Positions 16,501 to 54,785 of a stretch of 64,000 bases of DNA are shown one piece after another. The stretch comes from a virus, in the IMG/VR virus record IMGVR_UViG_3300032268_000832, positions 124,001-188,000 of that record, one strand, 5' to 3'. Below the pieces are notes generated by a model that was not told the DNA's origin, made no database searches, and was given only the letters and a program-made list of their open reading frames with translations. A program made the position numbers and the translations under genes. The first letter of the stretch is position 1; each line of letters begins with the position of its first letter.

Positions 16501-16508
16501 TATTTATA
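16501..16508 (+). promoter_or_regulatory. candidate late promoter core TATTTATA before the helicase
   Basis: TATTTATA lies 28 nt before the helicase start and directly after a hairpin. It is the one member of the motif set that precedes a replication gene. Confidence 0.4.
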
Positions 16509-47819: not shown

Positions 47820-48081
47820 CAGAAGTTTATATGAACCCTTTAATGATGAACAATTATATAAAATTGTTCATGATGGTTGGTCAGAATTTAAAGTTGCTTT
47901 AACTCATGAATTAAAACATGGTACCGACCAAGTATTAACGTTATTAATGCAAAGCACTGCTAGTATTCTAATAATGGATAGAGAAGAATTATTAGATATG
48001 ATAGGTTTAATGGATAAATACATTTACAAATTAAATAAATACAACGAAGAAAATGGTAAAGAAGATAATACATCTCGCTGA
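47812..48081 (+). CDS. small hypothetical protein between nuclease genes, 89 residues
   Basis: Unknown family. It is mostly helical with a central hydrophobic helix (VLTLLMQSTASILIM) and acidic ends. It overlaps the upstream nuclease by 8 nt and the downstream gp47-like gene by 29 nt, so it is co-translated with both and is probably a small accessory factor of the recombination complex. The long overlap with gp47 is supported by the good phosphodiesterase start in the other frame. Confidence 0.5.
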   Translation: MHNRSLYEPFNDEQLYKIVHDGWSEFKVALTHELKHGTDQVLTLLMQSTASILIMDREELLDMIGLMDKYIYKLNKYNEENGKEDNTSR

Positions 48082-48865
48082 TATTCACATTAGAACTTTT
48101 CGCATGCACGAAGAGTATATGTCAGTATTCAAAAAATTAATTTCTGATTTAACAGATTTGTTAACAGAATATAAAAAAGAAGAAATTAGGGTGGTAATTG
48201 CTGGGGACTTAGTTCACCAAAAAATTGTAATCTCGAATGAGCAACTTATGCTTGGAACATGGTTTATTAGAAAACTTGAAGAAATAGCACCAGTTATTAT
48301 AATAGCTGGGAATCATGATTTGTTAGAAAATAATAAAGACCGTATGGATTCTATATCACCAATGGTTCAATTTTTATTCGACAAAAATGTGAATTACTTC
48401 AAAGAATCAAAGTGTTATTTAGATGATAACATCGTATGGTGTGTTTATTCTATTTTTGAAGAAAATTCTAGACCAGATATTGAAGGTGCTAGAGCTCAAT
48501 TTGGTGATGACAAAACATATATCGGTTTATATCACGCACCAGTACTCAACGCTAAAACAGATATAGGTTACGAGATTGACCATGGTGCTGCGTTGGAAGA
48601 GTTCGAGGGTTGTGATATGGTTATGCTTGGTGATATTCACAAAAGACAATCGTTCAACCATAAGGGGATACCAATAGCATATCCATCAAGTCTGATACAA
48701 CAAAACTTTGGTGAGAATGTAAGTAAACATGGATTCTTATTATGGGATGTTAAAACCAAAACATTTACAGAGCATGATGTTGAAAACAAAGCACCATTCT
48801 ATCAATTTAAAATAAAGTCCCTTGAAGACCTCGATAACGGGACAGAGGTATTAACTAATTTATAA
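48053..48865 (+). CDS. 47: recombination endonuclease subunit gp47 (SbcD/Mre11-like)
   Basis: The 270-residue nuclease half of the gp46/47 complex that resects DNA ends for recombination-dependent replication. All metallophosphoesterase motifs are visible: LADIHI near the start, VIAGDLVH near 50, IAGNHDLLE near 78, the GLYHAP segment, and LGDIHKRQSF. T4 gp47 is 339 residues, so this version lacks some C-terminal capping sequence. The start overlaps the upstream small gene by 29 nt, and its stop overlaps the next ATG. Firm. Confidence 0.92.
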   Translation: MVKKIIHLADIHIRTFRMHEEYMSVFKKLISDLTDLLTEYKKEEIRVVIAGDLVHQKIVISNEQLMLGTWFIRKLEEIAPVIIIAGNHDLLENNKDRMDSISPMVQFLFDKNVNYFKESKCYLDDNIVWCVYSIFEENSRPDIEGARAQFGDDKTYIGLYHAPVLNAKTDIGYEIDHGAALEEFEGCDMVMLGDIHKRQSFNHKGIPIAYPSSLIQQNFGENVSKHGFLLWDVKTKTFTEHDVENKAPFYQFKIKSLEDLDNGTEVLTNL

Positions 48866-49095
48866 TGACATTAAACGAATTAAAAAAGTTTGTAAATGGA
48901 CTACCAGAAGAAATGGGTGAATGGTCTGTTGTAAACGGAGAAGTTGGGTATTTAGACCCTAGTGATGATAATTCTATGGTATATAGAATTGACAAACCAA
49001 TAATTGCTTTGTTTGTGGACCAAAGCTCACAAGAGATATGTTTATTCCATCAAACGCAAGAAGATGTAACAAATATGTTAGATGGAGGTGAATAA
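48865..49095 (+). CDS. small hypothetical protein between gp47 and gp46, 76 residues
   Basis: Unknown family. It is acidic and soluble, starting MTLNELKKFVNGLPEEMGEW and ending QEDVTNMLDGGE. Start and stop overlap both neighbours (TAATG upstream, 14 nt downstream), so it is translated as part of the gp47-46 operon. In T4 small genes also lie between 47 and 46 (46.1, 46.2). Function unknown. Confidence 0.5.
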   Translation: MTLNELKKFVNGLPEEMGEWSVVNGEVGYLDPSDDNSMVYRIDKPIIALFVDQSSQEICLFHQTQEDVTNMLDGGE

Positions 49096-49501
49096 AGAAT
49101 TAAACGATGAAATCTGGAACTATTGTAGAGCAAACAATATAACGAATATAGATGAATTTATGTTGAAATGTTTAAAACAAGGTTTCACATCTGAAAAGTT
49201 TGGTGCAACACCAACCACAAAAGAAAAAATTGTTGAGAAAGAGGTTGAAAAGATTGTAGAAGTACCTATTGAAAAAATTGTAGAAGTAATTGTTGAGAAA
49301 GAAGTTTTCATAACTGATAACAAAGAAATGAAAAAACTAACCAAAGAGATTGATAAGTTAAACGGTGTGATAAAAACAACAGCTGAAAACAAAGATAAAG
49401 CTATAGGTGAATTAGCTGCTCTTGAAATTGAACACAAAAAGTTAAAAATAGAATTAGAACAAGAAAAAAAGAAAAAGAAAACAGATTTGTATGGCGAATA
49501 A
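49082..49501 (+). CDS. coiled-coil protein with KIVE-type repeats, 139 residues
   Basis: The N-terminal 40 residues form a small domain (LNDEIWNYCRANNITNIDEFMLKCLKQGF) that looks like a helical bundle. Residues about 50-80 carry tandem heptad-like repeats (IVEKEVEKIVEVPIEKIVEV), and residues about 85-135 are a continuous coiled coil ending in a Lys-rich tract. Lying between gp47 and gp46, both of which rely on coiled-coil architecture, it may be a subunit or adaptor of the resection complex, but the family is unknown. It overlaps gp46 by 11 nt. Confidence 0.55.
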   Translation: MEVNKELNDEIWNYCRANNITNIDEFMLKCLKQGFTSEKFGATPTTKEKIVEKEVEKIVEVPIEKIVEVIVEKEVFITDNKEMKKLTKEIDKLNGVIKTTAENKDKAIGELAALEIEHKKLKIELEQEKKKKKTDLYGE

Positions 49502-51866
49502 CACACAACACATGACTGACAATTTAAATTTGTTATCATCAAACGCTAAGATTAAAATCTATTGGGATGATTTACCTCATAATTATAGTCGCGAAGCTAA
49601 GAATAAAATTAAAAATTATTTTGCTTCTAAGTATGGTTTTAACAAAAACAATATAAATATTGTTTACCGTCCAGTTAAAAGAACGGCAAATGGTGACGTT
49701 ATTGAAATTACTGGTGCTGGTATTGAAAACATCATGGATGTTAATTACCAAAGAAGTCTTATGCGAGAGTATTTAGACAGAGAGGGTAAAAACATTGATT
49801 TTAATAGAATCGTTGCTTTAGATGAGAAAGTAAACGGTGAGTTAAATATCGATTTAAATAATATCCAACATAAGACTTGGTCTATAAAATGGATAATGAT
49901 TGATAATTTTTTATCTTTTGGTGAACAAAATTATGTTCCATTTACAAAACTTAAAGGGTTGACTATTGTTAATTCAGTCCCTAGTAATCAAGGTGGTAAA
50001 ACGTCACTTACAATTGACGCTATTAAATTTTTATTACATGGTAACACAACTAAGACCGATACCAACGAACAAATATTTAATCAATTTTCAGATAAGAATG
50101 AATTGGTTGTTAGAGGTATGATTGAAATTGAAAATGAAGAAACAATCATTGAGCGTAAAATGAGAAGAACCGCCAAAAAAGGTGGTGGTTGGACAGTTAC
50201 CAATAAAGTAAACTACTATAAGATTTTACCAGATGGTGATGAGGAAGAATTAAATGAAGAGGACGCTAAACAAACGACTAAAAAAATAAAAGATAGTATT
50301 GGTTCTGAAAAAGATTTTGAAATGCTTGTATTAGCAACTGAAAAAAACTTAGATGAACTTATTGGTCTTACAACAACTGAATCTGGTAAAGTATTAACTA
50401 GATTAATTGGTTTAGAAGTTTTAGAATTGAAAGAAACCATTTCTCGTTCAATGTATAATGAATTTGCTAAAAAGAAAAAATCTAACGAATATGATGTTAT
50501 TACATTAAAACAAGAAATTGAAGACCACGAAACTAAAATTCAAGATTTACAAGATTTAGAACAAACACTTAACGAAAGTCTAGAAACTTATAAAAATAAA
50601 ATTAAAGAGCTAGAAGATGAACGAGATGGGTTATTATCAAATAAACAAACAATTGATGTAACTATATCAGAAATGAATCCAGAGTCCCTAGAAGAGACTA
50701 TTAAGGTGTTAACTAAAAAAGGTGTCACGATTAACAATAAAGTGTCTGTAATCAAAGAAGAATTGGTTAAAATAGGTGATATAAGTTTTAACGAAGACAT
50801 TCATCACCAGCTAACAAAACATTCAGCTTCTTTAAATACAAAATTAGCTTTAAAAGAAGCTGAGATTAAAAGATTACAAAAAGTTATTTCAAGTTTAATA
50901 GCTGGTGGTATATGTCAGTCATGTAATAGAAAACTTGATGATGTAGATAATTCAGAACACATAGCGAGTCATGAGTTAGAGATTGAAAAATTATTAAAAG
51001 AGGTTGAACAAACCGAAAAAGAATTAAAATTAACTGAATCTGAACTAACATCGTTAAACACAACTAAAAAATTAGTTGATGAAAAAAATAAAAAAGAGTT
51101 AGATATTGATAGGTTTGAGGTTGAAATGGGTGGTTTAAGAAATAAAATCATAGAAAAGAAAAATGACCTTAAAAAATACAATTTAAATTTAGATTCAATT
51201 ACTTTGAATAGAAAATTAGATATTCAGATTACTAAAATAAAAACAGATTTGAATGTTGAGAATTATTCTAAAGATGAAACTATTAAAAAAATTGAAAGAA
51301 TCCAATCTGACTTAAAAATTAACGCTGAAAGCATAGTTAACAAAAATAAGTTAATAACAACGATTCAGAAAGAAGAAGAAATTGATAAAATTTTCAAACT
51401 ATACATTGAATTAGTTGGTAAAAAAGGTATTAGTAAATTAGTTTTACGTTCTGTATTGCCGATAATTAATTCTGAATTACAAAGATTGTTAGAAGATGTT
51501 GTAGATTTTGAAGTTGAGATATTTATTAATGATAAGAATGATGTTCATTTCATGTTAACCAAGGATAATGTTCAAAAATTATTAAAATCTGGGTCTGGGT
51601 TTGAAAAAACAGCTGCTAGTTTAGCGCTAAGAGCCGTATTAGGTAAATTATCAACATTACCTATGCCTAATTTTATAACCTTTGATGAAGTGTTAGGTAA
51701 AGTAGCGCCAGAGAACTTAGAGAAATTAAAAACATTATTTGATAAAATAAAAGACATGTATGAGATTGTTTTCTTTATAACACATAACGATTTAGTTAAA
51801 GACTGGTCGACAAAAAATATCACGGTAGTGAAAAACAATAACATTTCAACAGTTAAGATATCATAA
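49491..51866 (+). CDS. 46: recombination endonuclease subunit gp46 (SbcC/Rad50-like)
   Basis: A 791-residue SMC-type ATPase. An unusual N-terminal domain of about 130 residues precedes the ATPase. The ATPase begins at MIDNFLSFG; the P-loop NQGGKTSLT near 164-172 departs from the usual GxNGxGKS. Two long coiled-coil arms flank a zinc hook GICQSCNRKL near 473-482. The signature region (KSGSGFEKTAASLALR) and Walker B/D-loop (FITFDEVLGK) are near 698-735, and an H-loop follows (FFITHND). T4 gp46 is 560 residues. Firm for family. Confidence 0.9.
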   Translation: MANNTQHMTDNLNLLSSNAKIKIYWDDLPHNYSREAKNKIKNYFASKYGFNKNNINIVYRPVKRTANGDVIEITGAGIENIMDVNYQRSLMREYLDREGKNIDFNRIVALDEKVNGELNIDLNNIQHKTWSIKWIMIDNFLSFGEQNYVPFTKLKGLTIVNSVPSNQGGKTSLTIDAIKFLLHGNTTKTDTNEQIFNQFSDKNELVVRGMIEIENEETIIERKMRRTAKKGGGWTVTNKVNYYKILPDGDEEELNEEDAKQTTKKIKDSIGSEKDFEMLVLATEKNLDELIGLTTTESGKVLTRLIGLEVLELKETISRSMYNEFAKKKKSNEYDVITLKQEIEDHETKIQDLQDLEQTLNESLETYKNKIKELEDERDGLLSNKQTIDVTISEMNPESLEETIKVLTKKGVTINNKVSVIKEELVKIGDISFNEDIHHQLTKHSASLNTKLALKEAEIKRLQKVISSLIAGGICQSCNRKLDDVDNSEHIASHELEIEKLLKEVEQTEKELKLTESELTSLNTTKKLVDEKNKKELDIDRFEVEMGGLRNKIIEKKNDLKKYNLNLDSITLNRKLDIQITKIKTDLNVENYSKDETIKKIERIQSDLKINAESIVNKNKLITTIQKEEEIDKIFKLYIELVGKKGISKLVLRSVLPIINSELQRLLEDVVDFEVEIFINDKNDVHFMLTKDNVQKLLKSGSGFEKTAASLALRAVLGKLSTLPMPNFITFDEVLGKVAPENLEKLKTLFDKIKDMYEIVFFITHNDLVKDWSTKNITVVKNNNISTVKIS

Positions 51867-51881
51867 TTTACACTAAAAAAG

Positions 51882-51912
51882 TTGTAAATTAAAGAAAAAA
51901 ATCATATCTTTG
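51882..51912 (+). promoter_or_regulatory. host-type promoter of the 169-residue gene
   Basis: TTG at 51882-51884, a 20-nt spacer, and TATCTTTG at 51905-51912. The start codon is 16 nt beyond the -7 element. Confidence 0.75.
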
Positions 51913-51928
51913 TAAAAAAACTTATATT

Positions 51929-52438
51929 ATGAAATTCAGAAATTATTGTATTGTTGTTATTGGTGATACTAAAGCTGTTTATCCTGAAGTTGACAAGGTA
52001 AGTGAAGGTAAACCAAATTTTTTAGATGGTAAGGGTATGATTATATCAACCTTCACTTCTTTTATGGACCCAATAGAATTAACCGATTATTTTACTTTTA
52101 ATAATAGGAATTTTTTATTATTTGATTTAAACAAAGATAATTCAGGATATTGTATAAACAAAAAAGATATTCATGAATCTTTATTTGGTTTTTTAAGGGA
52201 TATGGATGAAGAAACATTAAAACATAAATCGGAAGATTTTTTAAATGTATTAAAAAATGAAGATGTTATCGTAACAGCGAAAACAGAAAATATAATAACT
52301 AAATGTGTGGTCACTGAGAAAGAAATAGAGAAAATGACCAAAAACCAAAAGCAAGCATTATTCGACAAGATAATTGATGCTGGGGTTGAAAATCTAACAG
52401 AAGAAGATAAAAAAATATTGGATTTGTTAGTAAAATAA
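51929..52438 (+). CDS. hypothetical protein, 169 residues, monocistronic
   Basis: Unknown family. The N-terminal part is alpha/beta (YCIVVIGDTKAVYPEVD), and the C-terminal 50 residues are helical and charged (KMTKNQKQALFDKIIDAGVENLTEEDKKILDLL). It has its own host-type promoter and a strong terminator, so it is expressed alone, probably early or middle. It stands directly before the sigma-factor gene but is separated from it by the terminator. No motif reveals a function. Confidence 0.55.
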   Translation: MKFRNYCIVVIGDTKAVYPEVDKVSEGKPNFLDGKGMIISTFTSFMDPIELTDYFTFNNRNFLLFDLNKDNSGYCINKKDIHESLFGFLRDMDEETLKHKSEDFLNVLKNEDVIVTAKTENIITKCVVTEKEIEKMTKNQKQALFDKIIDAGVENLTEEDKKILDLLVK

Positions 52439-52474
52439 ATGATAAAACCCTTGACTTTTAAGGGTTTTATCATT
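52438..52474 (+). terminator. strong terminator hairpin
   Basis: AATGATAAAACCCTT / GACTTTT loop / AAGGGTTTTATCATT is a perfect 15-bp stem. The first base is the last base of the preceding stop codon. The T-rich right arm and its symmetry would work in both directions. Confidence 0.85.
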
Positions 52475-52479
52475 ATAAT

Positions 52480-52499
52480 TTATTGTTAAATAACAATAA
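52480..52499. promoter_or_regulatory. 20-bp near-perfect palindrome upstream of the sigma gene
   Basis: TTATTGTTA AA TAACAATAA is an inverted repeat with 9-bp arms and a 2-nt centre, 21 nt before the sigma-factor start. A hairpin with a 2-nt loop is strained, so a dimeric repressor operator is a better reading. Confidence 0.45.
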
Positions 52500-52520: not shown

Positions 52521-53342
52521 ATGAGTAAAAAATTTTTAAACTACAATGCAGATGATACCATATCAAAATATTTTAAAGAAATAAAAAAATCAACTGTGTT
52601 AACTCCAGACAAAGAAGTTGAGTTAGCAATAAGAATAAAAAAAGGTGACCAGTTAGCGATAGATGAATTAGTTAATGCAAATTTAAAATTTGTTATTTCA
52701 ATTGCCAAAGATTATCAAGGTCAAGGTTTAACGTTATCTGATTTAATAAGTGAGGGTAATTACGGATTAATTAAAGCTGCAACTAGATTTGACCATACAA
52801 GAGGTTTTAAATTTATATCTTATGCTGTTTGGTGGGTTAAACAATCAATAATTCAAAGTTTAAATGATAACGCTAGAGTTGTAAGATTACCAGCAAATGT
52901 TATCAATAAAATTTCAAAACTAAATAAAGAGTTTGGTAATGGTGAGGATAATGAAGATGAATTAATGCGTGAAATGTCTAGTTTTGATGAGTCGTTATTA
53001 AATTACCCTAAAACATCATCTCTTAATCAAAATGTAAATGAAGACGGTGGTGAGATAATCGATTTAATTATTGGTGATGAGTTAGAAAATAAATTAGAAG
53101 ATGTTGAAATATCAGACATAGTTAAAATAGAATTGAACAACATACTATCTATTTTAGATGAAAGAGAAAGAATGATAATTGAATCTTATTTTGGTATTAA
53201 TAACGAACATGATGGTATGACACTTGAAGCTATCGGTGACAAATATGATTTAACGAAAGAAAGAATCAGACAAATCAAAGAAAAAGCAATAAGAAAATTA
53301 AGACATAACACAAAAAAGTTACAAAGTCTTATTAATTTATAA
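52521..53342 (+). CDS. sigma-70 family factor, RpoD-like
   Basis: A 273-residue sigma factor with regions 1.2 to 4.2. Region 1.2 reads DTISKYFKEIKKSTVLTPDKEVELA; region 2 has ANLKFVISIAKDYQGQGLTLSDLISEGNYGL and FKFISYAVWWVKQSI; region 4.2 has LEAIGDKYDLTKERIRQIKEKAIRKLR. This is close to the primary sigma of Bacteroidota (about 285 residues) and far from the divergent T4 gp55. Region 3 is acidic and shortened (GEDNEDELMREM). Probable role: redirecting host polymerase to phage promoters, perhaps the TATTTAT motif. Family firm; target inferred. Confidence 0.9.
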   Translation: MSKKFLNYNADDTISKYFKEIKKSTVLTPDKEVELAIRIKKGDQLAIDELVNANLKFVISIAKDYQGQGLTLSDLISEGNYGLIKAATRFDHTRGFKFISYAVWWVKQSIIQSLNDNARVVRLPANVINKISKLNKEFGNGEDNEDELMREMSSFDESLLNYPKTSSLNQNVNEDGGEIIDLIIGDELENKLEDVEISDIVKIELNNILSILDERERMIIESYFGINNEHDGMTLEAIGDKYDLTKERIRQIKEKAIRKLRHNTKKLQSLINL

Positions 53343-53360: not shown

Positions 53361-53368
53361 TATTTATT
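53361..53368 (+). promoter_or_regulatory. TATTTATT motif before the membrane-protein gene
   Basis: CTATATTTATT ends 4 nt before the annotated ATG (53373). If it is a promoter, translation may begin at the next in-frame ATG (53397), which still leaves three membrane helices. Confidence 0.35.
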
Positions 53369-53372
53369 AAAT

Positions 53373-54785
53373 ATGAAGTTCAAACTTAAATATGTCATGT
53401 TAGGTCTAGCTCTCGCTGTTGCTGGTTGCGCAGCATACTTTTCAGTATGGGGTCTTAGCCAACTATTTGCAGGTGCTAGCGTGTCTGTTATTATAATGGC
53501 GTCAGTATTAGAATTAGGTAAATTAGTAACAACAACAGCCTTACACACTTATTGGAACAAGTTAGCCAAAACACTTAGAATTTATTTAGCGATAAGTGTT
53601 GTTATATTAATGGTTATCACATCCGCTGGTATCTATGGGTTTCTTTCAAACGCTTACCAATCAACAGCAAATAAGTTAGAAATCCATGAAGGTGAGTTAG
53701 GTGTTTTAGATGCTAAAAAAGCAACCTTTGAAAAAAGTGTAGTTGATAATCAAAAATTAATAGACACTAAAACAAAGCGTTTAGACCAACTATCTAACTT
53801 AAGAAGTAGTCAAGAATCTAGATTAGATAATTCTGGTTCTAATAGAGCTAAAAATAGCGTTAGAGGTGATATTAAGTCTGCTGATAGTGAAATACAAAAA
53901 TTAAACACTGAAATAGATGTGTTAAATGCTAAAAACATTGTACTTTCAGATTCTATAAACGCATACAATGTTAAAGCAATTGAATTGAAATCTGGTAGTT
54001 CAGTCGCTGCTGAAGTTGGTCCTTTAAAATACATTGCCCAATTAACTGGTATCTCTATGGCTAGTGTTGTTAATTATTTGATATTACTTTTAATTTTTGT
54101 TTTTGACCCATTAGCAGTTGCTTTGGTTCTTATTACAAACAAAGTTTTTCAAATTGAAAAAGAAGAAGAAGATGAAACTAAAAAAATATTAGAAGATATA
54201 GTTGAAGTGTTAAATAATGAAGATGAAAAAAATGTTGAAGTACAAAATGAACCAAATTATAATAAATTCGAATATAAATCACCTGGAGTATCTACTAGAG
54301 AGCATGATAACGATGTTTTAGAAGAACCAATCGAATTTTCAGATGATGAAACAATTGAACAACCAATTTTTGAGAATATAATAGACCCAGTTGATGAACT
54401 TATCATAGATGGAGAATCTGGAGAAATTAAATTCCCAGAAAAACCTTTAGAAATAAATCAAGAAGTGTTCTTACCATCACCACAAGAAAAAGAAGAAGAT
54501 GAGGAAGAATATGATGAATCACATGCGTTAGATATGGTTATGAACCACATTTTAGGTGATTATGAAGAAGTGGTTGAAGTTGAAAATGAAGTTGCTAAAG
54601 TAGAAGAAGAAGTTGCTGTAGTTGAAGAAGAGATTTTACCAATTGAAGAAGAAAATTTAAACGCTAAAGGTAAGATAACCTTAGAAGAAATTAAAGAAGT
54701 TAAAGAAAGAAATAGAGGTTTTTCGGTAAACATTCCAGAACCAAAAAGAAATAATTTAATTCAAAGAATAACTGGGAAACGTTAA
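53373..54785 (+). CDS. membrane protein with four helices, coiled coil and acidic tail
   Basis: A 470-residue inner-membrane protein. Helices lie at about 6-28, 32-56 and 69-92, then a periplasmic-length coiled coil at about 95-200 (LGVLDAKKATFEKSVVDNQ), and a fourth helix at about 228-258 (VVNYLILLLIFVFDPLAVALVLI). The last 200 residues are very acidic (EEPIEFSDDETIEQP) and end basic. Family unknown to me. It is at the head of the lysis/membrane cluster, so a lysis-control or membrane-remodelling role is possible. The stop overlaps the next start. Confidence 0.6.
   Translation: MKFKLKYVMLGLALAVAGCAAYFSVWGLSQLFAGASVSVIIMASVLELGKLVTTTALHTYWNKLAKTLRIYLAISVVILMVITSAGIYGFLSNAYQSTANKLEIHEGELGVLDAKKATFEKSVVDNQKLIDTKTKRLDQLSNLRSSQESRLDNSGSNRAKNSVRGDIKSADSEIQKLNTEIDVLNAKNIVLSDSINAYNVKAIELKSGSSVAAEVGPLKYIAQLTGISMASVVNYLILLLIFVFDPLAVALVLITNKVFQIEKEEEDETKKILEDIVEVLNNEDEKNVEVQNEPNYNKFEYKSPGVSTREHDNDVLEEPIEFSDDETIEQPIFENIIDPVDELIIDGESGEIKFPEKPLEINQEVFLPSPQEKEEDEEEYDESHALDMVMNHILGDYEEVVEVENEVAKVEEEVAVVEEEILPIEEENLNAKGKITLEEIKEVKERNRGFSVNIPEPKRNNLIQRITGKR

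Follow-up and report, generated by a model that had tools for sequence, protein, structure and literature searches.

A primary-type sigma-70 factor in a T4-type jumbo phage, probably separate from the phage's gp55-like late factor

T4-type phages are expected to transcribe their late genes with gp55, so what is a sigma factor resembling the primary sigma of the host doing in such a phage? The gene that raises this question, sigA, lies in the window, i.e., the 64-kb stretch of DNA analysed here (bases 124001-188000 of a 306,463-base virus record). A sequence-only reading of the window proposed that sigA is a captured host-like sigma which pairs with the motif TATTTAT and serves in place of gp55. 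We think it probable, and the best explanation overall, that sigA is instead a long-established phage sigma-70 of primary type, separate from a gp55-like late factor encoded by the same phage. The sigA reading frame is open and intact, with these features:

52521-53342, + strand: RpoD-like phage sigma factor (sigA), ATG start, 273 aa, with Pfam, PHROG, NCBIfam and PDB matches
52554-52655, + strand: sigma region 1.2 (aa 12-45), Pfam PF00140, 1.2e-10
52668-52877, + strand: sigma region 2 (aa 50-119; core binding and -10 reading), Pfam PF04542, 3e-17
52893-53090, + strand: shortened acidic region 3 with the 3.2 finger (approximately aa 125-190), from alignment with FCB RpoD
53145-53306, + strand: sigma region 4 (aa 209-262) with the helix-turn-helix LTKERIRQIKEKAIRKL, Pfam PF04545, 1.5e-15

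The three Pfam domains (Sigma70_r1_2, Sigma70_r2 and Sigma70_r4) occur in order, each above its curated cut-off, which places sigA in the sigma-70 family with the architecture of a primary sigma (1.2-2-3-4). Its PHROG match is phrog_351 (RNA polymerase sigma factor, 4e-62), and among solved structures it matches SigA/RpoD, the best at 1.2e-53. The predicted structure is moderate (pLDDT 72.7, pTM 0.41, with low confidence in the region 3 stretch), and its best matches listed are all SigA/RpoD/RpoS-type. The NCBIfam RpoD/RpoS models match at approximately 1e-57, with scores one-third to one-half of the equivalog cut-offs (185.8 and 194.9 bits for TIGR02393 and NF006666, where 354 and 572 are needed), so by the NCBIfam standard sigA is “RpoD-like” and not RpoD. 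T4 gp55 is absent among the PDB matches listed for sigA, the PHROG search gave no match to phrog_234 (late sigma), and sigA is not of the gp55 family type, as it carries regions 1.2 and 4 besides region 2. The claim that it resembles a primary sigma and not gp55 is therefore borne out.

How close sigA comes to the host's sigma is a matter of degree. Its identity is 43-48% to Bacteroidota/FCB RpoD vs 29-37% to other RpoD/SigA/RpoS proteins. In the alignment, it shares most of the region 2.3-2.4 and 4.2 substitutions that separate Bacteroidota RpoD from E. coli RpoD (e.g., most Bacteroidota-type substitutions are present in the region 2 segment FISYAVWWVKQSI), and its DNA-reading residues, FISYAVWWVKQSIIQ and LTKERIRQIKEKAIRKL, are mostly host-type. 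The sequence-only reading called the motifs nearly like those of Bacteroidota RpoD, which fits the shared substitutions but is somewhat strong for this level of identity. It was right about region 3, which is approximately 20 residues shorter than in Bacteroidota RpoD and D/E-rich; the 3.2 finger SLNQNVNEDGGE is retained. The two proteins are also alike in having no region 1.1 and in being of similar length, but sigA lacks the C-terminal SRSK tail and belongs to a separate clade. From its conserved regions 2.1-2.4 and 4.2, we infer that sigA should bind the host core and read host-like elements.

The closest cellular relatives found for sigA are Bacteroidota/FCB RpoD proteins, but the scan was guided by two peptide patterns biased towards FCB RpoD and the tree adds few non-FCB sigmas, so we do not claim these relatives as the nearest in all bacteria. 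SigA does not group with gp55. In a phylogeny with RpoD sequences, it stands in a phage-only clade of its own (support 96/98, 17-24 sequences), outside all 20-28 FCB RpoDs and thus not inside the Bacteroidota RpoD clade. The FCB RpoD rows fall on one side of a branch in 84% and 100% of bootstrap trees (two trees), a single clade of sigA and FCB RpoD is not rejected (p-AU 0.22), and a 100/99 branch splits the phage and FCB sigmas from E. coli, Acinetobacter and Enterococcus RpoD/SigA, E. coli RpoS and the other sampled outgroups. In the annotated phage collection there is no close relative of sigA: every match is below 60% identity, the best at approximately 39%. The surroundings of the gene are as follows:

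48053-51866, + strand: gp47-like and gp46-like recombination genes, conserved left neighbours of sigA (gp47-like from PHROG, gp46 from its position and coiled-coil ATPase look)
51905-51912, + strand: host-type -7 element TATCTTTG with TTG 20 nt upstream, preceding the 169-aa gene
51929-52438, + strand: 169-aa gene upstream of sigA (window ORF)
52451-52481, + strand: sigA promoter, TTGAC (52451-52455), 18 nt and TATAATTT (52474-52481), conserved in relatives
53361-53367, + strand: late-type motif TATTTAT, upstream of the 470-aa gene at 53373-54785

A gp46 homologue adjoins sigA in 77/80 relatives.

Which other sigma factors the phage carries can only be seen beyond the window. It is a T4-type phage, as are its relatives, since the Gp23 major capsid protein is present in 6/6 records (E to 1e-64). 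PF02916, a family which may be too narrow, did not match a gp45 clamp in the 6 records. Small ORFs of 152 and 192 aa, distant from the capsid gene, also give short partial Gp23-family matches, at G000:C1:226610-226774 and 278534-278647 (G000:C1 being the whole record), and G001, G002 and G004 have similar ones. The 306-kb record holds three sigma-region-2 proteins, i.e., sigA and the following two:

L001:1342-2214 (G000:C1:287999-288871): second RpoD/RpoS-like sigma, 290 aa
G000:C1:66043-66768, opposite strand to sigA: gp55-like protein, 242 aa, with a weak region 2 only (match 66451-66621)

The 290-aa sigma has an altered region 2.4 (WWVRKLMMEY in place of WWVKQSIIQS) and may read a different -10 element; its gene lies in the early region and has a host-type promoter, TTTGG..TATATTTG. 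The phage's two RpoD-like sigmas group as sisters at 92/92, a relation that we do not regard as firm.

The 242-aa gene sits approximately 110 kb from sigA, outside the window, and its evidence for homology with T4 gp55 is suggestive, not proven. Pfam finds region 2 alone, just under the cut-off, and region 4 is not recognisable. A T4 gp55 profile aligns collinearly with the protein, weakly (hhalign E 0.0014, probability 17), and one member of the family has its best match in phrog_234 (late sigma transcription factor, E 0.0039), the family into which T4 gp55 itself falls (2.9e-69). A first profile of the 242-aa family had only three PDB matches, all sigma factors, with T4 gp55 among them at E 0.53; a broader profile did not return T4 gp55 from the PDB. 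The fold comparison falls short of significance (model pLDDT 67), so the structure does not decide on homology. The gp55-like protein is present in 12/16 long sigma-bearing records, and the 4 lacking it are fragments of 129-215 kb. A cyanophage “RpoD” (KJ019143) was dropped as a gp55 yardstick, with only 3 relatives obtained. Just downstream of the gp55-like gene lies a gene for a 127-aa protein (L003:681-1064, - strand, G000:C1 approximately 65631-66014) with its own TATTTATA motif. Homologues of this protein occur near the gp55-like gene in 82/88 loci, approximately 30 bases downstream in most close relatives, making it a candidate late-sigma partner, perhaps gp33-like.

The next question is which of these factors reads TATTTAT. 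Over the whole window this motif shows no excess (66 vs 68.6 expected), so the sense intergenic counts alone are informative: 14 copies vs 2.8 expected, the copy at 53361 included, and 1 antisense. Most sites lie 4-39 bases before a start codon and have no -33 element. The T4 motif TATAAATA in sense orientation shows no excess in the window. A replication gene, that of a DnaB-like helicase (16537), has a late-type TATTTATA upstream at 16501-16507.

Phages with a gp55-like gene alone are informative here, and the motif test has two of them, both isolates: Flavobacterium phage vB_FspM_immuto_3-5A (immuto, MW353176) and Microcystis phage Mel-JY01, which is listed with a cyanobacterial host. The gp55-like profile matches them at 1.4e-25 and 1e-19, respectively, and the window-sigma family profile finds nothing at E<1 in either. 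Immuto and the window have a common gene order (recombinase-exonuclease-helicase-ribonucleotide reductase). Before genes, TATTTAT occurs 39 times vs 5.1 expected in immuto and 29 times vs 5.4 in Mel-JY01, ranking first and second, respectively, among all upstream 7-mers. In immuto, the genes that follow it include those for terminase, portal, sheath and other structural proteins, and it occupies different parts of the genome from TTG-N20-TATMTTTA promoters (25/12 vs 4/29, p=2e-6). The 16-76 kb part of immuto also has a very regular early promoter, AGTTG-N20-TATMTTTAGGTAT, in approximately 25-30 copies, most of which lie 20-32 bases upstream of a start codon. Because TATTTAT is enriched in phages with no detectable RpoD-like gene, it does not depend on an RpoD-like sigma, and the gp55-like factor is its best assignment. 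This comparative argument gives the late motif to the gp55-like family in these phages.

Promoters of a two-part kind are the more natural targets for sigA, whose intact region 4 suits them. Upstream of the sigA orthologue, most close relatives have CTTGACTTT..TATATTT[AG] (also written TTGACTTT..TATATTT[AG]), and all 15 TTGAC-N17-19-TATATTT sites in 257 kb of close relatives' sigA flanks are the sigA promoter, which is not seen in distant relatives of the sigma family. Between the -10 of this promoter and the gene start is a perfect 20-bp palindrome, TTATTGTTAAATAACAATAA (52480-52499); part of it (ATAAC) recurs in relatives, and an operator is possible. For this phage, the promoter counts cover stretches totalling approximately 176 kb of the 306-kb record. 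Sense intergenic TTG-N20-TAnnTTTG occurs 5 times in the window vs 0.02 expected and 5 times in the other stretches vs 0.07. The phage has many TTG-N19/20-TAnnTTTG promoters, of which the early ones equal the host consensus: the Bacteroidota primary sigma (sigma-ABfr, RpoD) reads TTTG/TANNTTTG (PMC6847099). In the stretches sampled from this phage, sense TTGAC-N16-19-TATATTT sites number 5 vs 0.01 expected; G001 has 3 vs 0.01, and immuto none. A TTGA-type -35 is found in 14/45 two-part promoters of two sigA-bearing phages vs 1/39 in two phages without sigA (p=5e-4), a comparison confounded by clade and host, and more than half of the TTGA-type sites end in the host form TTTG. This enrichment may reflect the host and not the sigma. 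Since every TTG-N20-TAnnTTT promoter could also be read by the sigma of the host, these counts single out no regulon specific to sigA.

These results bear unequally on the alternatives. That sigA recognises TATTTAT and drives late transcription instead of gp55 is very unlikely. The motif is enriched upstream of phage genes and one copy lies directly 3' of sigA, which would fit, but TATTTAT persists in phages where a gp55-like gene is present and no RpoD-like gene is detected, and it has no -33 partner for an intact region 4 to use. The substitution for gp55 also loses its premise: this phage and related ones carry a gp55-like gene, which in this record sits beyond the window that the sequence-only reading saw. 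A seemingly gp55-less phage is thus corrected to one with a gp55-like factor. Recent capture of a host rpoD gene, which was part of the same proposal, is more improbable still. It would agree with the nearest cellular relatives found being Bacteroidota/FCB RpoD and with the earlier idea of a cellular origin for phage sigmas of this kind (PMC7824862), but the phage-only clade outside the FCB RpoDs, the kept place beside gp46 and the modest identity to FCB RpoD all tell against it. We take sigA to be an old, vertically inherited phage gene because of this clade and the conserved synteny.

The explanation we prefer, a long-established primary-type sigma beside a gp55-like late factor, comes in two finer forms, and the confounded TTGA-type excess leaves a place for each. 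In one, which is possible, sigA simply substitutes for host RpoD: it recognises precisely the host promoter class, has no class of its own, and keeps early/middle genes on once the host sigma is blocked or outcompeted. Near-host residues in regions 2.3-2.4 and 4.2 and early phage promoters of the host consensus (PMC6847099) favour this form, whereas a TTGAC -35, hardly present in phages without sigA, marks the sigA promoter and a few more, and region 3 and the C-terminal tail are unlike host RpoD. The other form, in which we have slightly less confidence, makes sigA a dedicated middle sigma with its own class, TTGAC-N18-TATATTTA, as one step of a cascade from host sigma to phage sigma to gp55-like factor. 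The TTGAC-N16-19-TATATTT excess in this phage and G001 (with none in immuto) and the conserved promoter at sigA in relatives point this way, but the sites are few, more than half of the TTGA-type sites end in host TTTG, and distant sigma-family relatives lack the promoter. The 290-aa RpoD-like sigma could share or own a middle class. We offer only as a speculative proposal a full three-sigma cascade on one host core, in which host RpoD would serve early genes, the phage RpoD-like factor(s) a TTGAC-N18-TATATTTA middle class (in place of T4 MotA/AsiA appropriation), and the gp55-like factor late genes through TATTTATA, the reverse complement of T4 TATAAATA. Should the RpoD-like sigma turn out to own the TTGAC class, these phages would offer a natural system for the switching of middle transcription by a second full sigma.

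Returning to the preferred explanation, its mechanism can be sketched as follows. A clade of T4-type jumbo phages shares sigA, and their promoters, like the closest cellular sigmas found, suggest hosts among the Bacteroidota. SigA would most likely bind the host RNA polymerase core and direct it, in the early/middle phase, to two-part host-like promoters (TTG, approximately 20 nt, TATATTT[GA]), its own TTGAC-N18-TATATTT included. Late structural and lysis genes, with TATTTAT(A) and no -33/-35 element, would most likely be read by the separate gp55-like sigma encoded approximately 110 kb away.

An RpoD-like sigma alongside a gp55-like one is already known in other giant phages (group-2 and CBB), and because the late-gene signal tracks the gp55-like factor, the phage at hand is a new example of this arrangement, to which it adds a divergent late motif, TATTTATA, and a new sigma clade. 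Group-2 (T4-type) jumbo phages, among them phages of Bacteroidetes, carry sigmas of two kinds, of which one is near cellular RpoD (PMC7824862). They include Prevotella LAK and Tenacibaculum PTm1, and resemble our phage in having a Gp23-type capsid, no RNA polymerase of their own and a fuller RpoD-like sigma. The differences are that the sigA clade has no close annotated-phage relative and that here two RpoD-like sigmas stand beside the gp55-like one. In T4, gp55 acts with gp33 and gp45 as a sigma-2-type late factor at late promoters without a -35 (PMC2988020); its likely counterpart is the 242-aa protein and not sigA, which has regions 1.2, 3.2 and 4.

Phage CBB encodes a sigma-70-like protein (CBB_513) in its early region and a T4 gp55-like protein (CBB_244), and has a TATAAATA-like late motif (PMC5259590). 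Like our phage, it has early promoters of host type, a sigma of its own with regions 2-4, a second class of promoters, a gp55-like sigma and a late motif before structural genes; gp33/gp45 were not found there either (PMC5259590). CBB differs in its gammaproteobacterial host, in its late motif (TATAAATA-like there, TATTTATA here) and in the -35 of the second promoter class, which is TGAAACG there and TTGAC here.
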